Shown: one piece after another, positions 53,420-61,488 of the stretch
Layout: every line of letters begins with the position of its first letter
Numbering within the stretch: position 1 is the first letter of the stretch
NCBI RefSeq assembly: GCF_000226975.2
Contig: NZ_CP019285.1
Location: forward strand, 124,001-188,000
Source: Halobiforma lacisalsi AJ5
GTDB taxonomy: Archaea; Halobacteriota; Halobacteria; Halobacteriales; Natrialbaceae
DNA length: 64,000 nt
Direction of reading: 5' to 3'
Notes under the pieces: generated by a model
What the model saw: the letters and a program-made list of their open reading frames with translations, nothing else
What the model was told of the DNA's origin: nothing
Databases searched by the model: none
Made by a program: the position numbers and the translations under genes

Positions 53420-55648
53420 TCAGTGATACTCCGAGCGCGGATCCAGCACCTCGACCGGGTGGACCGCCTCGCGCGCGAGGAGGTCCTCGAGTTGGTCCTC
53501 GCAGGAGGTCCCGCTCGCCACGACGAGCCGATCGTTCGTCTCGGGCGTCGTGAACTGGTCAGCCAGTCGGTCGCCGACGTCCATGCTCAGTTCGTAGTAC
53601 TGCTCCTTGTAGCCGAACGAACCCGCCATCCCGCAACACTCCACGTCGCTCTCGAGGACGTCGTACTCGAGGTCTTCGAGGACGGCCCGGGTGTACCGAT
53701 CCAGTCCCAGCGTCCGCTGCTGGCAGTGGGAGTGGTAGGCGATCTCCGGGGCCCGCTCGCCGCCGCCGTCCCGCAGTCGGTCGGCGTCGGCACCGTTCTC
53801 GAGCAGGCCGTAGACGTACTCGAGGACCTCGTAGCTGCCGTCCCGCAGGCGCTCGTAGGACGCCTCGGGGAGGAACTTCTCGTACTCGCTGCGGAACATC
53901 GCGAGGTCGCTGGGCTCGATCACGACGACGTCGCGGTCGGCGTCGAGATGTTCGGCGAGGGTGGCGTAGACGCGGCTGGCCTTCTCGTCGGCCGTGCCGA
54001 TCATCCCCTGGGAGAGCGGCGCGCGACCGCTGCCGGGCGCCGACGGGATCCGGACGTGAACGTCGAGCGCCTCGAGGACGCGGACGGCGGCCTTCCCGCG
54101 GTCGACGTCGATGTAGTTGGTGTAGACGTCGGGGTAGAGGACGACCTCGCGGTCGGCGTCGGCGGCGGAGACGCGGGGGCCGCGGTCCGCGAACCAGTCG
54201 ACGAGCGTCGTCCGTTCGAACTCGGGGAGCGGCCGACGAGAATCGACCCCGACCGTCTTCTCCATTAGCGTGCGCACGGGGCCGAGTTTCGTCGTCCAGT
54301 TCGAGACGGGAGCCGTCGCGGACCCGAGTTTCGCCAGCGTCTCGTAGTTGCCGAACAGCCGCTTCTGGAGGTCGACGCCGCCGGGTTCCTCGTCGGGCGT
54401 AAGCCCCTCGACGAGGAAGTCGAACTGGCCCGGTTCCTCGCGGTTGATCCGGTCGCGGACGACGGTGTTGATCCACGGGATGTCGATCTTTACCGGACAG
54501 GCCTCGACGCAGCGCGAGCAGCCGGTACAGAGGTCGTTGAACTCCGCCGCGGCGTCCTGGCCGTGGACCCCGGCCTCCCAGCCGGTTGCGATCCCGCCCG
54601 AATAGGTCTCGCCGCCGAACGCGTGGCCGCCCACGGACTGGAAGTTCGCGCAGGTGTTGGCACAGGCCGAACACCGGATGCAGTACAGCGTCTCGCGGAG
54701 GTGGTCGTCCTCGCGCATCGCCATGCGGCCGTTGTCGATCAACACGAGGTGGAACTCGCGGTCGTCGTCGCGTTCGGCGAACTCGAGGTCGGGGTCGTCG
54801 AAGTCGACGACGGGCGAGTCCACCGGCGGCGTCAGCAGGGAGACGTAGGAGGTGATGTCCTGGCCCGTCCCGGAGCGGCCGATCAGTTCGATGAAGGGCG
54901 CGAGGTCCTCGACCGACGGAACGACCTTCTCGACGCCCGCGACGGCGACGTGGGTGTCGGGGACGACGGCCGTCTTCCGGGCGTTGCCCTCGCTCGTGAC
55001 CAGCATGATCGAGCCCGAGTCTGCCGTGATGAAATTCGCACCCGTCATCCCGACGTCCGCGTCGGCGATCAGTTCGCCCAGCCGCTCGCGGGCGAACATC
55101 GTCAGCTCCTCGGCCGTCTCGAGGGGCTCGTCGGGGTCGAACTGCTCGTTGAACAGCTCGGCGATCTCGGCTTCGGACTTGTGGATCGCCGGCGCGACGA
55201 TGTGGGAGGGAGCCTCGTCGGCCACCTGCAGTACCCACTCGCCGAGGTCGGTCTCGACCACGTCGACGCCGTCGGCCTCGAGGGCCTCGTTGACCTCCAG
55301 TTCCTCGCTGGTCATCGACTTCGACTTGACGACGCGGTCGGCGTCGTTCTCGCCGGCGACCTCGCGGATGTACCGGTTGGCGTCGGCGGCGTCGTCGGCG
55401 AGGTAGAGCGTGCCGCCGTTTTCCTCGACAGCCTCGCGCAACTGTTCGATCAGTTCCGGCAGACGCTCGATCGCGTCCTCCTTGATCTCGCGGGCCCGCT
55501 CCTTCAGCCCTTCGTACTCCTCGAGGTCGGCGACCGACTCGTATCGGCCCTCGTTGAAGCCGAGGGTGTTCTCCTCGACGGCCTCACCCTCGGTCTCGAG
55601 GAGGTGTCGGATCCGTTCGGCCTTCCGTTCGCGGGTGTCGGTGCTCAT
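53420..55648 (-). CDS. LutB/LutA-type fused iron-sulfur lactate utilisation protein
   Basis: Protein of 742 residues. Residues about 70-310 form an LUD domain (GMTGANFITADSGSIMLVTS). Two [4Fe-4S] motifs follow (CIRCSACANTC and CTGCSRCVEACP, about 328-405). A CCG domain fills the C-terminus (YHSHCQQRTLG and ECCGMAGSFG). This equals bacterial LutB with an added LutA-like part. It probably passes electrons from lactate oxidation to the membrane. Its start overlaps lutC by 4 nt (ATGA), so the two are coupled. Confidence 0.88.
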   Translation of the reverse strand: MSTDTRERKAERIRHLLETEGEAVEENTLGFNEGRYESVADLEEYEGLKERAREIKEDAIERLPELIEQLREAVEENGGTLYLADDAADANRYIREVAGENDADRVVKSKSMTSEELEVNEALEADGVDVVETDLGEWVLQVADEAPSHIVAPAIHKSEAEIAELFNEQFDPDEPLETAEELTMFARERLGELIADADVGMTGANFITADSGSIMLVTSEGNARKTAVVPDTHVAVAGVEKVVPSVEDLAPFIELIGRSGTGQDITSYVSLLTPPVDSPVVDFDDPDLEFAERDDDREFHLVLIDNGRMAMREDDHLRETLYCIRCSACANTCANFQSVGGHAFGGETYSGGIATGWEAGVHGQDAAAEFNDLCTGCSRCVEACPVKIDIPWINTVVRDRINREEPGQFDFLVEGLTPDEEPGGVDLQKRLFGNYETLAKLGSATAPVSNWTTKLGPVRTLMEKTVGVDSRRPLPEFERTTLVDWFADRGPRVSAADADREVVLYPDVYTNYIDVDRGKAAVRVLEALDVHVRIPSAPGSGRAPLSQGMIGTADEKASRVYATLAEHLDADRDVVVIEPSDLAMFRSEYEKFLPEASYERLRDGSYEVLEYVYGLLENGADADRLRDGGGERAPEIAYHSHCQQRTLGLDRYTRAVLEDLEYDVLESDVECCGMAGSFGYKEQYYELSMDVGDRLADQFTTPETNDRLVVASGTSCEDQLEDLLAREAVHPVEVLDPRSEYH

Positions 55649-56169
55649 GGTTCACCCCCGTCGGCGTCCTCCGCGTCCGTAATCAACACCACCCGAACCT
55701 CCTTCGGCCCGTGTGCACCCTTCACGAGCGCCCCCATGTCGGCGGTCGCGCTCGGCCCCGTCGCGATCACGGCGCTGCCGCCGTCGCGTAGTTCGGGCCC
55801 GAGCCGTTCGATCGCCGTCGGCATATCGGCGACGAGGTCCCGTTCCCGGAGGACCGCCACGTGCCGTTCCGGAAAGAGGCTCACCGGTTCACTCCCCCCG
55901 GGCGTCGACGGGAGCACCACGCTCCCGTAGTCGGCGACCCCCAGCGAGGCCGCGGTGACGCCCGTCTGCGCGGCTTCGAGGGCCCCGGGCGTCGGTTCGT
56001 CGTCGACCCACGCCGGGAGCGACACCCCCTCGAACGGGAGCGGCGTCCCCACGACGGGGTCGCGGGCGACGCCTTTGAGAGTCTCGTCGAACGTGGCCGG
56101 CGTCGTGCGGCTCACCGGCACCTCGAGGTCCTCGAGAGCGGTCTCGAACCGCTCGACGGTAGTGGTCAT
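55645..56169 (-). CDS. lutC: LutC-like LUD-domain protein
   Basis: Protein of 174 residues. It has the LUD fold, with TAASLGVADYGSVVLPSTPG, then EPVSLFPERHVAVL and TGPSATADMGALVKGAHGPK, which resembles LutC. It works with the LutB/LutA fusion in L-lactate oxidation in bacteria; the exact role of LutC is unclear. First gene of the two-gene operon. ATG at 56169; a TATA-like element is not obvious. Confidence 0.85.
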   Translation of the reverse strand: MTTTVERFETALEDLEVPVSRTTPATFDETLKGVARDPVVGTPLPFEGVSLPAWVDDEPTPGALEAAQTGVTAASLGVADYGSVVLPSTPGGSEPVSLFPERHVAVLRERDLVADMPTAIERLGPELRDGGSAVIATGPSATADMGALVKGAHGPKEVRVVLITDAEDADGGEP

Positions 56170-56684
56170 ACGTTGATGCTACGCGCGCGCCCATTTCACT
56201 GTTCTGTTAGTTCACCCTTCCCGGAGGCGCGGACATCCACCAGCGATTGCGTCATCGAGTTTCCACTTGGCGTTCGTCGGAATCTAGGCGCGCGCGAGGT
56301 CGACGACCCGCCCGAACGCCCGTTCACTCGAATGAAGTGGCCTCTCCACACGACTGTATCCACTGTGCAGTCGTGTGTACTGGCAAAACGTAACGGTCGA
56401 TCACGAGTGTTCTGGAACTCCCTCCCATACCATGCTACCATCTACCACCGGACACTGATTATGAAACCGCAGCACTTGACCGTGACAGACGACTGAACAG
56501 GTCGAGGACGATTCCGAACCCAGGGTTATACGTCAGTTATTCACACGCCACGAGACCCGAGAGGACGAATATCGGCGATTCACCGATCGAAAGTCGCCCG
56601 ATAGACGACATACGACGGGGATTTCCTTCGACAGTCCGCTGAACCGTCGAAATTTATATATAGGGGATCGGTGGTGTCCCAACC
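56170..56684. other. Divergent promoter region between lutC and lctP1
   Basis: This 515-bp stretch has no convincing gene. It contains a long perfect inverted repeat (56347-56377) and, near its right end, the TATA-like TTTATATATA at 56653-56662 for the micro-ORF/lctP1 transcript. The frame at 55861-56496 crossing the left part is the shadow of lutC. Confidence 0.6.
56347..56377 (+). promoter_or_regulatory. Operator-like inverted repeat in lutC-lctP1 gap
   Basis: CACACGACTG (56347-56356) and CAGTCGTGTG (56368-56377) form a perfect 10-bp inverted repeat with an 11-nt spacer. It is 180 bp from the lutC start and about 300 bp from the micro-ORF start. A related half (CAGTCGAGTG) occurs upstream of lctP2, near 59200. 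It could bind a lactate regulator. Confidence 0.4.
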
Positions 56685-56777
56685 ATGCCAGACGGAATCC
56701 ACCGTGGCATAAACAGTACGGACGGGAGACCGGCTCCGGAGAGCAACCTCGCGCTCGAGCACGGGGGTGGGTCGTAA
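56685..56777 (+). CDS. Leaderless micro-ORF upstream of lctP1 (30 aa)
   Basis: ATG at 56685 lies 27 nt from the middle of the TATA-like TTTATATATA, so a leaderless transcript begins here. The ORF encodes MPDGIHRGINSTDGR then PAPESNLALEHGGGS and ends in TAATG, its stop sharing one base with the lctP1 start. Ribosomes could load on the micro-ORF and pass to lctP1. The peptide itself has no recognised function. Confidence 0.6.
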   Translation: MPDGIHRGINSTDGRPAPESNLALEHGGGS

Positions 56778-58543
56778 TGGTCAGCACGGGAGAGATCCTG
56801 CTGGCCGCGGTCCCGCTGGTGCTCGCCGGCGTATTGCTCGTCGGCTTCCTGTGGCCCGCGACGCGGGCGATGCCCCTCGCCTGGATCGCCGCCGTCCTGA
56901 TCGGGTTGTTCGTGTGGGGGATGCCGCTCGAGTACGTGATGGCGGCCTCGATCGCCGGCGCGATGACGGCGATCCAGATCCTCTGGATCGTCTTCGGCGC
57001 GTTGCTCCTCCTGTACACGCTGATGCAGGCGGGGGCGTTCGATCGGATCAACGAAGGGTTCGCGACGATCAGCGGGGATCGCCGCGTGCAGATCGTCCTG
57101 CTCGGCTTCTTCCTTGCGGCGTTCATCGAGGGCGCTGCTGGCTTCGGGACGCCGGCAGCGGTCGTCGCGCCGTTGCTGCTGGCGCTTGGCTTCCCCGCGC
57201 TCGCGGCGGTGATCGCGGCCCTGATCGGTCACGTCCTCGCCGTCACCTACGGTGCGGTGGGAACGCCGATCATCGTCGGCATCGAGAACCCGCTCGCGTC
57301 GACGGCGGCGACCGAGAGCGCGATCACGGACGCCGGCTTCACCATCCAGGCGTACTCGGTCGAAGTCGCGGTCTGGGCGGCGACCTATCACGCGCTCGTG
57401 GGCTTCGTCATGCCCCTGTTCGCCGTCGCGATGGTCGTCTACTTCTTCGGTGACACCGAGGAGCGGAGCCTCGAGCCGGCCTGGGAGGTCGCGCCGCTGT
57501 GTCTGTTCTCGGGGATCGCGTTCGTCGTCCCCTACTGGGCGTCGGCACAGATCAGCGCGGAGTTCCCGTCGCTTCTCGGCGCGATGGTCGGCGGCGCGGT
57601 CGTCGTCGGCGCGCTCAAGGCGGGCTACTTCGTCCCCGACGAGGAGTGGGATTTCCCGGAGCGCGAGACGTGGCCCGATCACTGGGTCGGCACGATCGAA
57701 CCCGGCCAGTCCAGCGGCTCCGCCGTCCCCGACGGCATCGACGACGGTGCTACGGTCGCCGACGGCGGCAACCAGCGGATGTCGCTGCTCCGTGCGTGGA
57801 CGCCGTACATCCTGCTGGTCGCGCTGCTCGTGATCACGCGCGTCATCGACCCGCTGCCCGAACTCCTCCAGGAGAACGTACTCGAGGTCGCCGGCTACCC
57901 GATCCTGTTCAACACGCAGTGGCCGGAGATCCTCGGGACGGGAATCAGCGAAAGCATTTCCTGGGTGTACGTGCCCGGGTTCTGGCTCGTCCTCTGTGCG
58001 CTGATCGCGATCCCGCTGTACGGCATGCGTGGAGCGCAGGTGAAGGCTGCCTGGGCCGAGACGGGACAGAAGCTCGTCTCGCCGCTGATCGCGCTGGTGT
58101 TCGTTATCGCAATGGTCCAGATCATGCTGCAGTCGGGCGCCCACGCCGAGAGCGCCGAGAGCATGATCTTCGTCCTCGCGCAGGCGACCGCCGACGCCGT
58201 CGGCCCTGCCTACCCGTTCATCTCCGCGCTCATCGGCGCGCTCGGGGCGGCGATGGCCGGCTCGAACACCGTGTCGAACATCACGTTCGGCGGCTTCCAG
58301 TTCGAGGCCGCGAGCGAACTCGGCCTGCCGACCCAGCTCATCGTCGGCGCACAGGCCGTCGGCGGCGCGATCGGCAACCTCGTGGCGATCCACAACGTCG
58401 TCGCCGCGCTGGCGACCGTCGGCCTCGTCGGCGAGGAGGGCCGCGTGATGCGCCTCAACCTGATCCCGCTCGTCTACTACGCGCTCGGGGTCGGGATCCT
58501 CACGGCACTGTTCAGCTACGTCCTCTTCCCGGGACTGTTCTGA
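56777..58543 (+). CDS. lctP: L-lactate/glycolate permease, paralogue 1
   Basis: Membrane transporter of the LctP family (TC 2.A.14), 588 residues with 12-14 hydrophobic helices. The family signature is [20 protein letters not shown] (about 114-133), followed by [18 protein letters not shown]. The C-terminal half ends with GSNTVSNITFGGFQFEAA and VGAQAVGGAIGNLVAIHNVV. A soluble loop near residue 295 is acidic. It would import lactate with protons. Two more copies follow at 59453 and 61485. Confidence 0.95.
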   Translation: MVSTGEILLAAVPLVLAGVLLVGFLWPATRAMPLAWIAAVLIGLFVWGMPLEYVMAASIAGAMTAIQILWIVFGALLLLYTLMQAGAFDRINEGFATISGDRRVQIVLLGFFLAAFIEGAAGFGTPAAVVAPLLLALGFPALAAVIAALIGHVLAVTYGAVGTPIIVGIENPLASTAATESAITDAGFTIQAYSVEVAVWAATYHALVGFVMPLFAVAMVVYFFGDTEERSLEPAWEVAPLCLFSGIAFVVPYWASAQISAEFPSLLGAMVGGAVVVGALKAGYFVPDEEWDFPERETWPDHWVGTIEPGQSSGSAVPDGIDDGATVADGGNQRMSLLRAWTPYILLVALLVITRVIDPLPELLQENVLEVAGYPILFNTQWPEILGTGISESISWVYVPGFWLVLCALIAIPLYGMRGAQVKAAWAETGQKLVSPLIALVFVIAMVQIMLQSGAHAESAESMIFVLAQATADAVGPAYPFISALIGALGAAMAGSNTVSNITFGGFQFEAASELGLPTQLIVGAQAVGGAIGNLVAIHNVVAALATVGLVGEEGRVMRLNLIPLVYYALGVGILTALFSYVLFPGLF

Positions 58544-58574
58544 ACCGGCGTCCCTCGTTTTCGAGTCGGCCGGC

Positions 58575-59183
58575 TCAGCCCAGTGTCGGGGTAAACCGGT
58601 CGTCCCCGAGGAAGCTCCAGATGTGGCCCCGCTCCTCCGGTGAGTCGACCGCCGGTAGCTCCTTCAGGGCGGGCTGGATCGCGTTCCACCAGCCCTCGGG
58701 CGTCTCGAAGTCGGCGGGGTGCTCCGGGTAGACGTGCTCGACGAAGTCCGACTTCGTCGCGCTCGGATGGTCGACGATGTACTCGTAGGCCGCCCGGAGC
58801 GCCTCACGGCGCGCCTCGAGCGTTTCCCCCGATCCCGGCAGGTCCGCGCCCCGGATCGCCTCCTCGATCGCGGCAGGCGATTCGTCCCCGGAGTCCGCCC
58901 GTGGAGTCGCCGCGTCGCCGGCCCGTTCCGGCGGCGTCTCGATCGGCACCCACCAGACCCGGCCGCGGGCGCCGACCTTGCGCGTCTCGAGTTCCCCGCG
59001 CTCGACGAGGTCGTTCAGCTTGTTGTGCGCCGTCCGACGGGAACACCCGAGCGCGTCCATGACGTCGGCTGCGGTCAGCGGCCGACCGTAGTCGTCCCGT
59101 TCCTCGAACGCCTCGAGGGCGGCCTCCGGCGGGATTCGGTCGGCGTACTGGCCGTGTTCGTTTCGCTCTCGGTCGGCGCTCAT
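58575..59183 (-). CDS. Winged-helix transcriptional regulator
   Basis: Protein of 202 residues. The N-terminal winged helix (about 20-75) includes RPLTAADVMDALGCSRRTAH (helix-turn-helix) and LVERGELETRKVGARGRVWW (wing). The C-terminal part, from about 95, reads EALRAAYEYIVDHPSATKSD and GWWNAIQPALKELP. It sits between lctP1 (convergent) and lctP2 (divergent), the position expected for a local regulator of lactate genes, but its ligand is unknown. The start ATG at 59183 precedes the DNA-binding domain. Confidence 0.8.
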   Translation of the reverse strand: MSADRERNEHGQYADRIPPEAALEAFEERDDYGRPLTAADVMDALGCSRRTAHNKLNDLVERGELETRKVGARGRVWWVPIETPPERAGDAATPRADSGDESPAAIEEAIRGADLPGSGETLEARREALRAAYEYIVDHPSATKSDFVEHVYPEHPADFETPEGWWNAIQPALKELPAVDSPEERGHIWSFLGDDRFTPTLG

Positions 59184-59343
59184 GTGCGCTACCAGTACAG
59201 TCGAGTGTAAATGTCTTTGGCCGCTTACCCCGTGACGGCCCCGGATTCCCCGGCCGGTCGATCGCCGGCACGGAGCTGGAATCGTAACGCGGAGCCGGGA
59301 CTCCGAACCCTCCACGTTAGCAACGCGGTGAATCTTCCGACAA

Positions 59344-59362
59344 CTATAATTAGTACATGTAC
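59344..59362 (+). promoter_or_regulatory. TATA-like box and palindrome for lctP2 transcript
   Basis: CTATAATT (59344-59351) is followed at once by the palindrome GTACATGTAC (59353-59362). The expected leaderless start falls at about 59375-59379, on the micro-ORF ATG. The palindrome would place an operator between TATA and start. Confidence 0.5.
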
Positions 59363-59378
59363 ACAGGTACCTTACAAC

Positions 59379-59447
59379 ATGATTTCGCGGGCGCGACGAC
59401 GGGAGGACTCTCGGGGAACCGGCCGAGGATTCGTCACGACGGGCTGA
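59379..59447 (+). CDS. Leaderless micro-ORF upstream of lctP2 (22 aa)
   Basis: ATG at 59379 is about 31 nt from the centre of CTATAATT. The 22-residue ORF reads MISRARRREDSRGTG then RGFVTTG. It stops 5 nt before the lctP2 ATG. It is Arg-rich, unlike the other two. A longer in-frame start for lctP2 at 59357 exists, but lies upstream of the expected transcript start. Confidence 0.5.
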   Translation: MISRARRREDSRGTGRGFVTTG

Positions 59448-59452
59448 CGAGT

Positions 59453-61231
59453 ATGGTCTCGGGAACAGAGGTGCTGTTCGCCGCGGTGCCGCTGATCGTG
59501 GTCGGGGTACTCCTCGTCGGGTTGCTCTGGCCGGCGACGCGGGCGATGCCCATCGCCTGGCTCTCGGCGGTTGTCGTCGCGGCCGCGGTCTGGGGAATGC
59601 CGCCGTCGTGGCTCGCCGCGGCGACCGTCGAAGGGATCATCACCGCGATCCAGATCCTCTGGATCGTCTTCGGCGCGCTCGTCCTGCTGTACACGATGAT
59701 GATCGCGGGGGCGTTCGACGCGCTCAACCGGAGCTTCGCGACCGTCAGCGAGGACCGCCGCGTCCAGATCGTGCTGGTGGCGTTCTTCCTCGCGACGTTC
59801 CTCGAGGGGGTCGCCGGCTTCGGGACGCCGGCGGCGGTCGTCGCGCCGCTGCTGCTTGGACTCGGCTTCCCCGCGCTCGCGGCCGTCGTCGCGGCCCTGA
59901 TCGGGCACATCATCGCCGTCACCTACGGCGCGGTCGGGACGCCGATCATCGTCGGGATCCGTGAGCCGATAGACAGCGTCTTCCTCATCCGCACGACGCT
60001 CGAGGCCGAGGGCGTAACCCCGGCCGAGTTCGCGGTCAACGTCGCGGCGTGGGCGGCGACCTACCACCTGCTGGTCGGCGTGTTGATGCCGTTCATCGCG
60101 GTCGCGATGGTCGTCTACTTCTTCGGCGAGCGCCGCTCGATCAGACCCGCGCTCGAGGTGGCACCGCTGTGTTTGTTCGCGGGCGTGGCGTTCGGCCTCC
60201 CCTACTGGTTCGCGGCGTGGTACGTCACGCCGGAGTTTCCCAGCCTGATCGGCTCGATGGTCGGTGCGACGGTCGTCGTCGGGACGCTCCGGGCGGGCTA
60301 CCTCCTGCCGGACGAGGAGTGGACGTTCCCCGACCAGTCGGAGTGGCCCGACCACTGGCTGGGCGAGATCCAGCCCGGCGACCGGGGGTCGGTACTCCCG
60401 AGCGAGCCGCGGACCACCCTCTATCGCGCGTGGACGCCGTACCTGCTATTGCTCGTCCTGCTCGTCGCCACCCGGCTGATAGAGCCGCTGTCCGCGCTGT
60501 TGCAGGGGGAGACGGTGATGGCGTTCGGGCGGGAACTGTCGCTGACGCTCGCGACGATCAGCACCGGGATCGGCAGGTTCACGGTCGGCCTGCTCTCGCT
60601 CCAGTGGGTCGACATCTTCGGGACGACCCTCGAGAACGACATCGACCTCGGCTACGTCCCCGGGATGTGGCTGCTGGTCAGTGCGGTCGCGGCCGGCGTG
60701 CTGTTCGACATCGACCGTTCGGAGGCGGCGACCGCCGTCCTCGAGGCAGCCCGGAAGCTCGTGACGCCGCTGATCGCGCTCGTGTTCGTCCTCGCGATGG
60801 CGCACGTGATGCTCCAGTCGGCGGCCCACCCCGGCGCGCCCGACCAGAGCATGATCGTCGTCCTCGCGGTGGCAACCGCGAACGTCTTCGGGCCCGCGTA
60901 CCCGTTCGTCGCGGCGCTGATCGGTGCGTTCGGGGCCGCGCTCGTCGGCTCGAACACCGTCTCGAACATCACGTTCGGTCCGCTCCAGTTCGTCGCCGCC
61001 GAGAACCTCGCGATCTCGCGGGAACTCACCGTCGGCGCCCAGGCCGTCGGCGGTGCGATCGGCAACCTCGTGGCGATCCACAACGTCGTCGCCGCGCTGG
61101 CGACCGTCGGCCTCGGCGGTGAAGAGGGGCGCGTGATCCGCCTGAACCTGATTCCCCTGGTGTACTACACCGTTTTCGTCGGCTTCTGGACCGTGGTGTT
61201 CGTCTACGTCCTCTTCCCCGACGTCTTCTGA
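59453..61231 (+). CDS. lctP: L-lactate/glycolate permease, paralogue 2
   Basis: LctP-family transporter of 592 residues. It contains [20 protein letters not shown] and [19 protein letters not shown] and ends with FGPLQFVAAENLAISREL and VGAQAVGGAIGNLVAIHNVV. It differs from paralogue 1 by a longer loop near residues 350-390 and by several substrate-side residues, so its preference may differ. Follows its own micro-ORF by 5 nt. Confidence 0.94.
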   Translation: MVSGTEVLFAAVPLIVVGVLLVGLLWPATRAMPIAWLSAVVVAAAVWGMPPSWLAAATVEGIITAIQILWIVFGALVLLYTMMIAGAFDALNRSFATVSEDRRVQIVLVAFFLATFLEGVAGFGTPAAVVAPLLLGLGFPALAAVVAALIGHIIAVTYGAVGTPIIVGIREPIDSVFLIRTTLEAEGVTPAEFAVNVAAWAATYHLLVGVLMPFIAVAMVVYFFGERRSIRPALEVAPLCLFAGVAFGLPYWFAAWYVTPEFPSLIGSMVGATVVVGTLRAGYLLPDEEWTFPDQSEWPDHWLGEIQPGDRGSVLPSEPRTTLYRAWTPYLLLLVLLVATRLIEPLSALLQGETVMAFGRELSLTLATISTGIGRFTVGLLSLQWVDIFGTTLENDIDLGYVPGMWLLVSAVAAGVLFDIDRSEAATAVLEAARKLVTPLIALVFVLAMAHVMLQSAAHPGAPDQSMIVVLAVATANVFGPAYPFVAALIGAFGAALVGSNTVSNITFGPLQFVAAENLAISRELTVGAQAVGGAIGNLVAIHNVVAALATVGLGGEEGRVIRLNLIPLVYYTVFVGFWTVVFVYVLFPDVF

Positions 61232-61332
61232 AGGGGCCGCCGGCGGAGCGTTCGCGTTCGGCAACGCCTCTCCCGACCTGCTCACCACGTAGGGTGACGG
61301 GACCCCACGAATGCCCAGATATATCCCGAACG

Positions 61333-61348
61333 TCCATTATATAATGGA
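61333..61348 (+). promoter_or_regulatory. 16-bp perfect palindrome upstream of lctP3
   Basis: TCCATTATATAATGGA reads identically on both strands. It lies 30 bp upstream of the TATA-like TAAATATAC (61376-61384). It could be an operator or, given its TATATA core, a symmetric promoter element. Confidence 0.4.
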
Positions 61349-61410
61349 TAATCGTCCAGTCCTCGAGAATTCCGGTAAATATACATGGTGGTCGTCGGGA
61401 GTCTCGAACG

Positions 61411-61488
61411 ATGAGGATTACTCACACGCAGTTACGTGACGAACGGGTGAGGGAGCGGGCTGCTGTGGCGAGGGTCGTGCGACGATGA
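61411..61488 (+). CDS. Leaderless micro-ORF upstream of lctP3 (25 aa)
   Basis: ATG at 61411 is 31 nt from the centre of TAAATATAC. The ORF reads [14 protein letters not shown] then [11 protein letters not shown] and ends in a TGA that overlaps the lctP3 ATG (ATGA, 4-nt overlap). Third example of the arrangement. Confidence 0.55.

Follow-up and report, generated by a model that had tools for sequence, protein, structure and literature searches.

Short upstream open reading frames at haloarchaeal lactate permease genes: conserved frame and stop position, variable peptide, and a probable role in ribosome delivery

Three full-length lactate permease genes (lctP; PF02652) lie in tandem in the window, the 64,000-nucleotide stretch of haloarchaeal DNA analysed here, and each of them is preceded by a short open reading frame that ends at the permease start (Table 1). 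What are these micro-ORFs for, and is their placement more than an accident of the sequence? The host is a haloarchaeon of the Natrialbaceae, and an lctP of Halobiforma haloterrestris is 98% identical to the window copy. Divergent from the lctP block, on the minus strand at 53420-56169, is a pair of LUD/iron-sulfur genes for lactate utilisation; an FAD-binding dehydrogenase gene (63322) lies downstream of the block. The interval between lctP1 and lctP2 encodes, on the minus strand at 58580-59183, a helix-turn-helix-like protein (sub-threshold AbiEi_4), which is a possible local regulator. The original prediction described three TATA-anchored micro-ORFs of 30, 22 and 25 codons ending at the permease starts, and their coordinates proved correct; the distance of 27-31 nt that it gave from TATA box to ATG fits the values in Table 1 if it is counted from inside the box. 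An in-frame N-terminal extension of lctP2 from an ATG at 59357 was considered and rejected, as this codon lies only 12 nt past the start of the TATA box and is therefore outside the predicted message.

Table 1. Features of the lctP block and of the upstream open reading frames (positions in the window).
Feature	Position	Strand	Remarks
TATA-like box TTTATATA, lctP1 micro-ORF promoter	56653..56660	+	32 nt 5' of micro-ORF ATG; equivalent box in homologues
Micro-ORF 1, 30 codons	56685..56777	+	TAA and lctP1 ATG overlap by 1 nt (TAATG)
Inverted repeat ATGCCA-N14-TGGCAT	56685..56710	.	First base is that of micro-ORF 1 ATG; putative operator, alternatively a hairpin at the 5' end
lctP1, lactate permease, 588 aa	56777..58543	+	PF02652 E 1e-101; codon-usage caller gives same start
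TATA-like box TATAATTA, lctP2 micro-ORF promoter	59345..59352	+	34 nt 5' of micro-ORF ATG
Micro-ORF 2, 22 codons, TGA	59379..59447	+	5-nt gap before lctP2 ATG at 59453
lctP2, lactate permease, 592 aa	59453..61231	+	PF02652 E 8e-98; codon-usage caller gives same start
TATA-like box TAAATATA, lctP3 micro-ORF promoter	61376..61383	+	35 nt 5' of micro-ORF ATG
Micro-ORF 3, 25 codons	61411..61488	+	TGA and lctP3 ATG at 61485 overlap by 4 nt (ATGA)
lctP3, lactate permease, 590 aa	61485..63257	+	PF02652 E 2e-92; codon-usage caller gives same start

By itself, the window makes this pattern only moderately unlikely, and it is suggestive only. In dinucleotide shuffles with the ATG held fixed, the first stop fell within -10 to +13 of the lctP start with P of 0.12, 0.02 and 0.50 for the three genes (product 0.001), and the ATGA at lctP3 arises easily by chance because its TGA sits within lctP's own ATGAcc. 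A sharper contrast came from 451 other leading genes having at least 80 nt free upstream in 864 kb of the same genome. At matched criteria, and with starts predicted by a home-made codon-usage gene caller in this one genome, only 2 of the 451 have the arrangement (2 and 1 in shifted frames), against three of three in the window (Fisher P 6e-7). No excess over the other frames was found among these control genes at any TATA threshold, relaxed ones included, and for this genome the idea of a general haloarchaeal gene feature was rejected on that ground. Since the control count is no higher than that in shifted frames, the arrangement is a mark of lctP and not of haloarchaeal genes generally, and it is apparently restricted to lctP as far as one genome tells.

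The evidence from the window goes barely beyond chance, and the upstream regions of lctP homologues were therefore gathered, 122 of them across Halobacteria, with 80 from Natrialbaceae and 40 more across the class. Gene starts were assigned via homology to the three window proteins with no use of the micro-ORF, one ATG per homologue was chosen on TATA score and distance alone, and phylogenetic dependence was reduced by taking one sequence per upstream-similarity cluster. Within the family, the first in-frame stop lies within -10 to +13 nt of the lctP start in 56 of 65 members, compared with 4 and 19 in frames +1 and +2; outside the family, a stop is found at the lctP start in 19 of 23, compared with 4 in each of the other two frames. 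In the non-redundant set, 48 of 58 cluster representatives have a stop in this interval when read from the TATA-anchored ATG; the other two frames give 6 and 11 (binomial P about 1e-25 at p 0.19). In this comparison the frame control partly offsets the bias of a TATA matrix fixed after examples had been seen. This result is unchanged across TATA thresholds from 7 to 13. Stop-start spacing in relatives is thus not random, in agreement with what the original prediction led one to expect.

The arrangement is not universal. The TATA box or the ATG is weak or missing in 32 of 123 homologues, a few members of the class have no trace of it, and two distant lctP-like genes (L189 and L190) lack the arrangement. 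Operon membership was rejected for the homologues with no clear micro-ORF, as no upstream gene abuts them. A GTG replaces the micro-ORF ATG in L091 and L102 with the remainder intact, and in some clades the ATG lies ~40 nt past the TATA box, which implies a short leader. Two further observations concern the copies themselves. Natronorubrum bangense (G101) carries the three-lctP block with identical match scores on its chromosome (C1:247972-254608) and on a plasmid (C2:103278-109914), which suggests a recent inter-replicon transfer. In another genome (G073; L073 and L079, C2:778200-780928) a second lctP is a decaying paralogue, fragmented, with a frameshift and an in-frame TGA, and with its TATA/ATG region retained.

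The exact form of the junction between micro-ORF and permease varies. Among 109 assigned micro-ORFs, stops lie most often at +8 (43), +4 (19), +7 (14) and +1 (11), that is, at overlaps of 8, 4, 7 and 1 nt, and the overlap type switches between clades. The spacings in the window (-1, +5 and -4) fall within the range of about -8 to +10 for coupled pairs. Close counterparts of all three micro-ORFs exist: in Halobiforma haloterrestris, micro-ORF 1 has its stop in the same position, with TAA changed to TGA and two amino-acid changes; L061 and L067 likewise have 22 codons and a 5-nt gap with a peptide other than that of micro-ORF 2, and L051 has a 12-nt gap at this place; L062 and L068 retain the length and the ATGA of micro-ORF 3 with another peptide. 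As a separate observation, L157, L161 and L172 carry an extra GTG micro-ORF of 5-7 codons, about 28-34 nt past the TATA box, whose TGA shares bases with the ATG opening the short ORF that follows (ATGA), in the manner of two chained couplings; a similar chained arrangement can be seen by eye in L105 and L109-L114.

The permease genes themselves bear traces of this junction. Codon 2 ends in T in 35 of 87 lctP genes (40%), as opposed to 51 of 451 controls (11%). Permeases beginning M[AV]S are coded NNT-AGN in 16 of 21 clusters, which yields TAG in the overlapping frame; in the genome, a third-position T occurs in only about 5% of Ala/Val codons, and AGN makes up about 31% of Ser codons. The micro-ORF frame is the one that reads this TAG in 17 of the 18 genes that have it. 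Judging from these codon frequencies, codon 2 of lctP is bent toward providing the stop of the micro-ORF. In the lctP1 gene of the window the common TAG at codons 2-3 is absent (GTC AGC), and a TAA is present directly upstream instead.

Genes of the lctP1 type have an inverted repeat at the beginning of the micro-ORF. The N14 spacing between its arms is constant in nearly all homologues that carry it; in two Natronomonas-type homologues (L165 and L167) both arms are altered with the centre unchanged, giving ATGACAG-N12-CTGTCAT, and L183 has a shorter loop (N7). Half-sites ~20 bp apart at constant spacing favour a putative protein-binding site, and a hairpin enclosing the 5' AUG is a conceivable alternative, with a modest structure predicted at the start of the lctP1 leader (-10.4 kcal/mol, z -1.8). 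Located over the predicted message start, the repeat is likely a control point of lctP1-type genes. Elsewhere in the genome it has only two exact matches, both in unrelated contexts, and no second functional-looking copy; a regulon was rejected for this reason. A riboswitch or structured leader was also rejected, as none of the three leaders matches an Rfam family at threshold and whole-leader folding is unremarkable (z-scores of -1.0, 0.6 and 0.1).

This repeat might lead one to think that the ATG and its neighbouring bases are kept as promoter or operator DNA, and that the open frame is accidental. The position of the repeat across the predicted lctP1-type message start agrees with such a reading, as do the scarcity of stops in G+C-rich DNA and the ease with which shuffled sequence reproduces the lctP3 case. 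However, frame and stop are also kept in the lctP2 and lctP3 types, which lack the repeat and retain the coupling arrangement; the pattern is absent from the other frames and from other genes of equal composition; and the coupling persists while the stop shifts between overlap types. We regard a by-product of DNA-level constraint as improbable.

Another reading leaves the micro-ORF untranslated and has lctP translated independently of it, via a 5'-UTR or a promoter of its own. The good Shine-Dalgarno (SD)-like stretches before many lctP starts would be in keeping with it: a match of at least 5 nt to GGAGGTGATC is found at 62% of lctP starts, as against 9% among leading genes and 55% among those that abut a gene upstream (the matches at lctP1, lctP2 and lctP3 of the window are weak, 4, 3 and 4 nt). 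These genes are first by position, but the SD signature at their starts is that of second genes. In Haloferax volcanii, in which 72% of messages are leaderless (PMC4983044), the SD is inactive at 5'-UTRs, where it gives no de novo initiation, and it serves reinitiation, being common before reinitiated genes (PMC6728339). Moreover, an own TATA box is rare in lctP (5 of 87 genes, with 82 lacking it), lctP1 of the window has none (score 0.5), and the conservation of the micro-ORF frame would be left unexplained. Independent translation thus has very little to recommend it.

The peptides encoded by the micro-ORFs provide a further line of evidence. In 20 related pairs, substitutions at codon positions 1, 2 and 3 number 52, 68 and 69, changed codons are nonsynonymous in 107 cases versus 39 synonymous ones, and the three gaps, of 3, 6 and 9 nt, are all multiples of three. 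Frame, stop and a length of mostly 16-35 codons are kept, and the peptides vary between clades and paralogues, those of lctP1, lctP2 and lctP3 appearing unrelated. As far as aligned sequences can reveal it, this pattern shows selection to preserve frame, length and stop position of the micro-ORF, and not its peptide. Together with the frame survey, it strengthens the earlier proposal that the architecture is conserved and the peptide is not.

This pattern also bears on the idea of a leader peptide or attenuator, in which ribosome speed on certain codons, or the nascent peptide, would sense a metabolite and control lctP. The position of the micro-ORF is like that of attenuator leaders, mycobacterial leaderless polycysteine ORFs act in this way according to their citation in PMC9031893, and Asp is 1.9 times as frequent as in shuffled ORFs. 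Against this stand the equal change at all codon positions, the differing peptides of clades and paralogues, the lack of a conserved codon run common to the homologue micro-ORFs, and the ordinary leaders with no Rfam riboswitch. Attenuation is accordingly very improbable, and so is the suggestion in the original prediction that the micro-ORF senses something through its codons. A small functional protein encoded 5' of each permease is scarcely credible, as the MPD.IPHGIG stretch common to lctP1-type peptides of several genera falls on the site of the DNA inverted repeat, and nonsynonymous changes and the seemingly unrelated peptides of the three types oppose it.

The explanation that we consider quite probable is leaderless entry at the micro-ORF, throw-away translation of it, and then termination-reinitiation at lctP. 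In this account each short message would have two cistrons, of which lctP is the second. Transcription is predicted to start at the micro-ORF ATG or a few nt from it, about 30 nt past the TATA box, on the basis of the 32-35 nt that separate this ATG from the start of the TATA-like 8-mer in the window. A ribosome would load at the 5'-terminal ATG by leaderless initiation, which is how haloarchaea mainly initiate, read 15-35 codons whose sequence is of no importance, stop at the lctP start and reinitiate there, probably aided in most homologues by an SD-like stretch within the micro-ORF. Conservation of frame, stop and SD is what the comparison shows, and we infer the transcription start, the translation of the micro-ORF and the reinitiation. 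Because the position of the micro-ORF is kept and its peptide is not, it is probably only a carrier of ribosomes, present solely for their delivery to the permease start codon. The original reading of a leaderless entry ORF coupled to the permease is in this respect the best-supported one, with start and translation predicted. More tentatively, and with considerable doubt, one may envisage a class-wide archaeal module for control of one transporter family, in which a leaderless entry codon, placed in the lctP1 type inside a 5' hairpin or an operator, would be followed by a delivery ORF of free sequence. Reinitiation would then be obligatory, control of one 5'-terminal AUG would set permease output, and two ORFs would be chained in some clades.

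The proposed mechanism has several relatives. Overlapping gene pairs of Haloferax are strictly coupled in translation, and reporters demonstrated the dependence of the downstream gene (PMC6728339); the commonest spacings are given as -4, -1 and -8, and coupling in Haloferax fades over a gap of 13-22 nt (Huber 2023; PMC10666635). In gene pairs of E. coli, the final 15 nt of the first gene sufficed (Huber et al. 2019, 2023; PMC6728339, PMC10666635). The lctP micro-ORFs resemble the termination-reinitiation pairs of Haloferax volcanii in stop-start spacing and SD use (PMC6728339, PMC10666635). However, the upstream partner in those pairs is a real gene, often for a subunit of the same complex, whereas in lctP it would be a throw-away ORF of 15-35 codons.

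The closest logic is that of the mycobacterial leaderless small ORFs, whose coupling is conserved and whose peptide is not, and for which ribosome delivery was proposed (Shell et al. 2015, PMC4633059; reviewed in PMC12548453). They share with the lctP micro-ORFs a position at the very start of the message (predicted in the case of lctP), a stop overlapping the start of the next gene and an unconserved peptide. They differ in being bacterial, in preceding many genes with an RTGA overlap and in having RNA-seq and Ribo-seq support, whereas the lctP micro-ORFs are archaeal, belong to one gene family over several haloarchaeal families, have overlaps of 8, 7, 4 and 1 nt with the SD inside the micro-ORF, and are predicted from sequence. 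In H. volcanii, uORFs of 15-31 codons likewise occupy the stretch that separates the transcription start from the main gene (Babski et al. 2016, PMC4983044); that study covered only leaders of 150-250 nt, and coupling was not its point. Its peptides have a low isoelectric point, unlike those of lctP, in which Arg+Lys (310) exceed Asp+Glu (232). The mycobacterial polycysteine attenuators (Canestrari et al. 2020, via PMC9031893) are similar in that a leaderless short ORF controls a downstream gene, but as described there they depend on a codon run, of which none was found in the lctP micro-ORFs. Among the papers searched, there was no haloarchaeal leaderless delivery ORF and none tied to one gene family class-wide. 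The delivery logic is already known in mycobacteria; what is new is that the setting is archaeal, that only one family appears to be concerned and that conservation runs so deep.

Overall, these results provide comparative evidence, the first in archaea as far as is known, for a short upstream ORF that is kept for being translated and for its stop site, not for its product. A lineage with leaderless starts and no use of the SD in de novo initiation can nonetheless put a translated leader before a gene. This raises the question of why the lactate permease in particular needs a delivery ORF. With more than 100 natural variants available in a group that is amenable to genetics, the idea of ribosome delivery becomes sharply testable.
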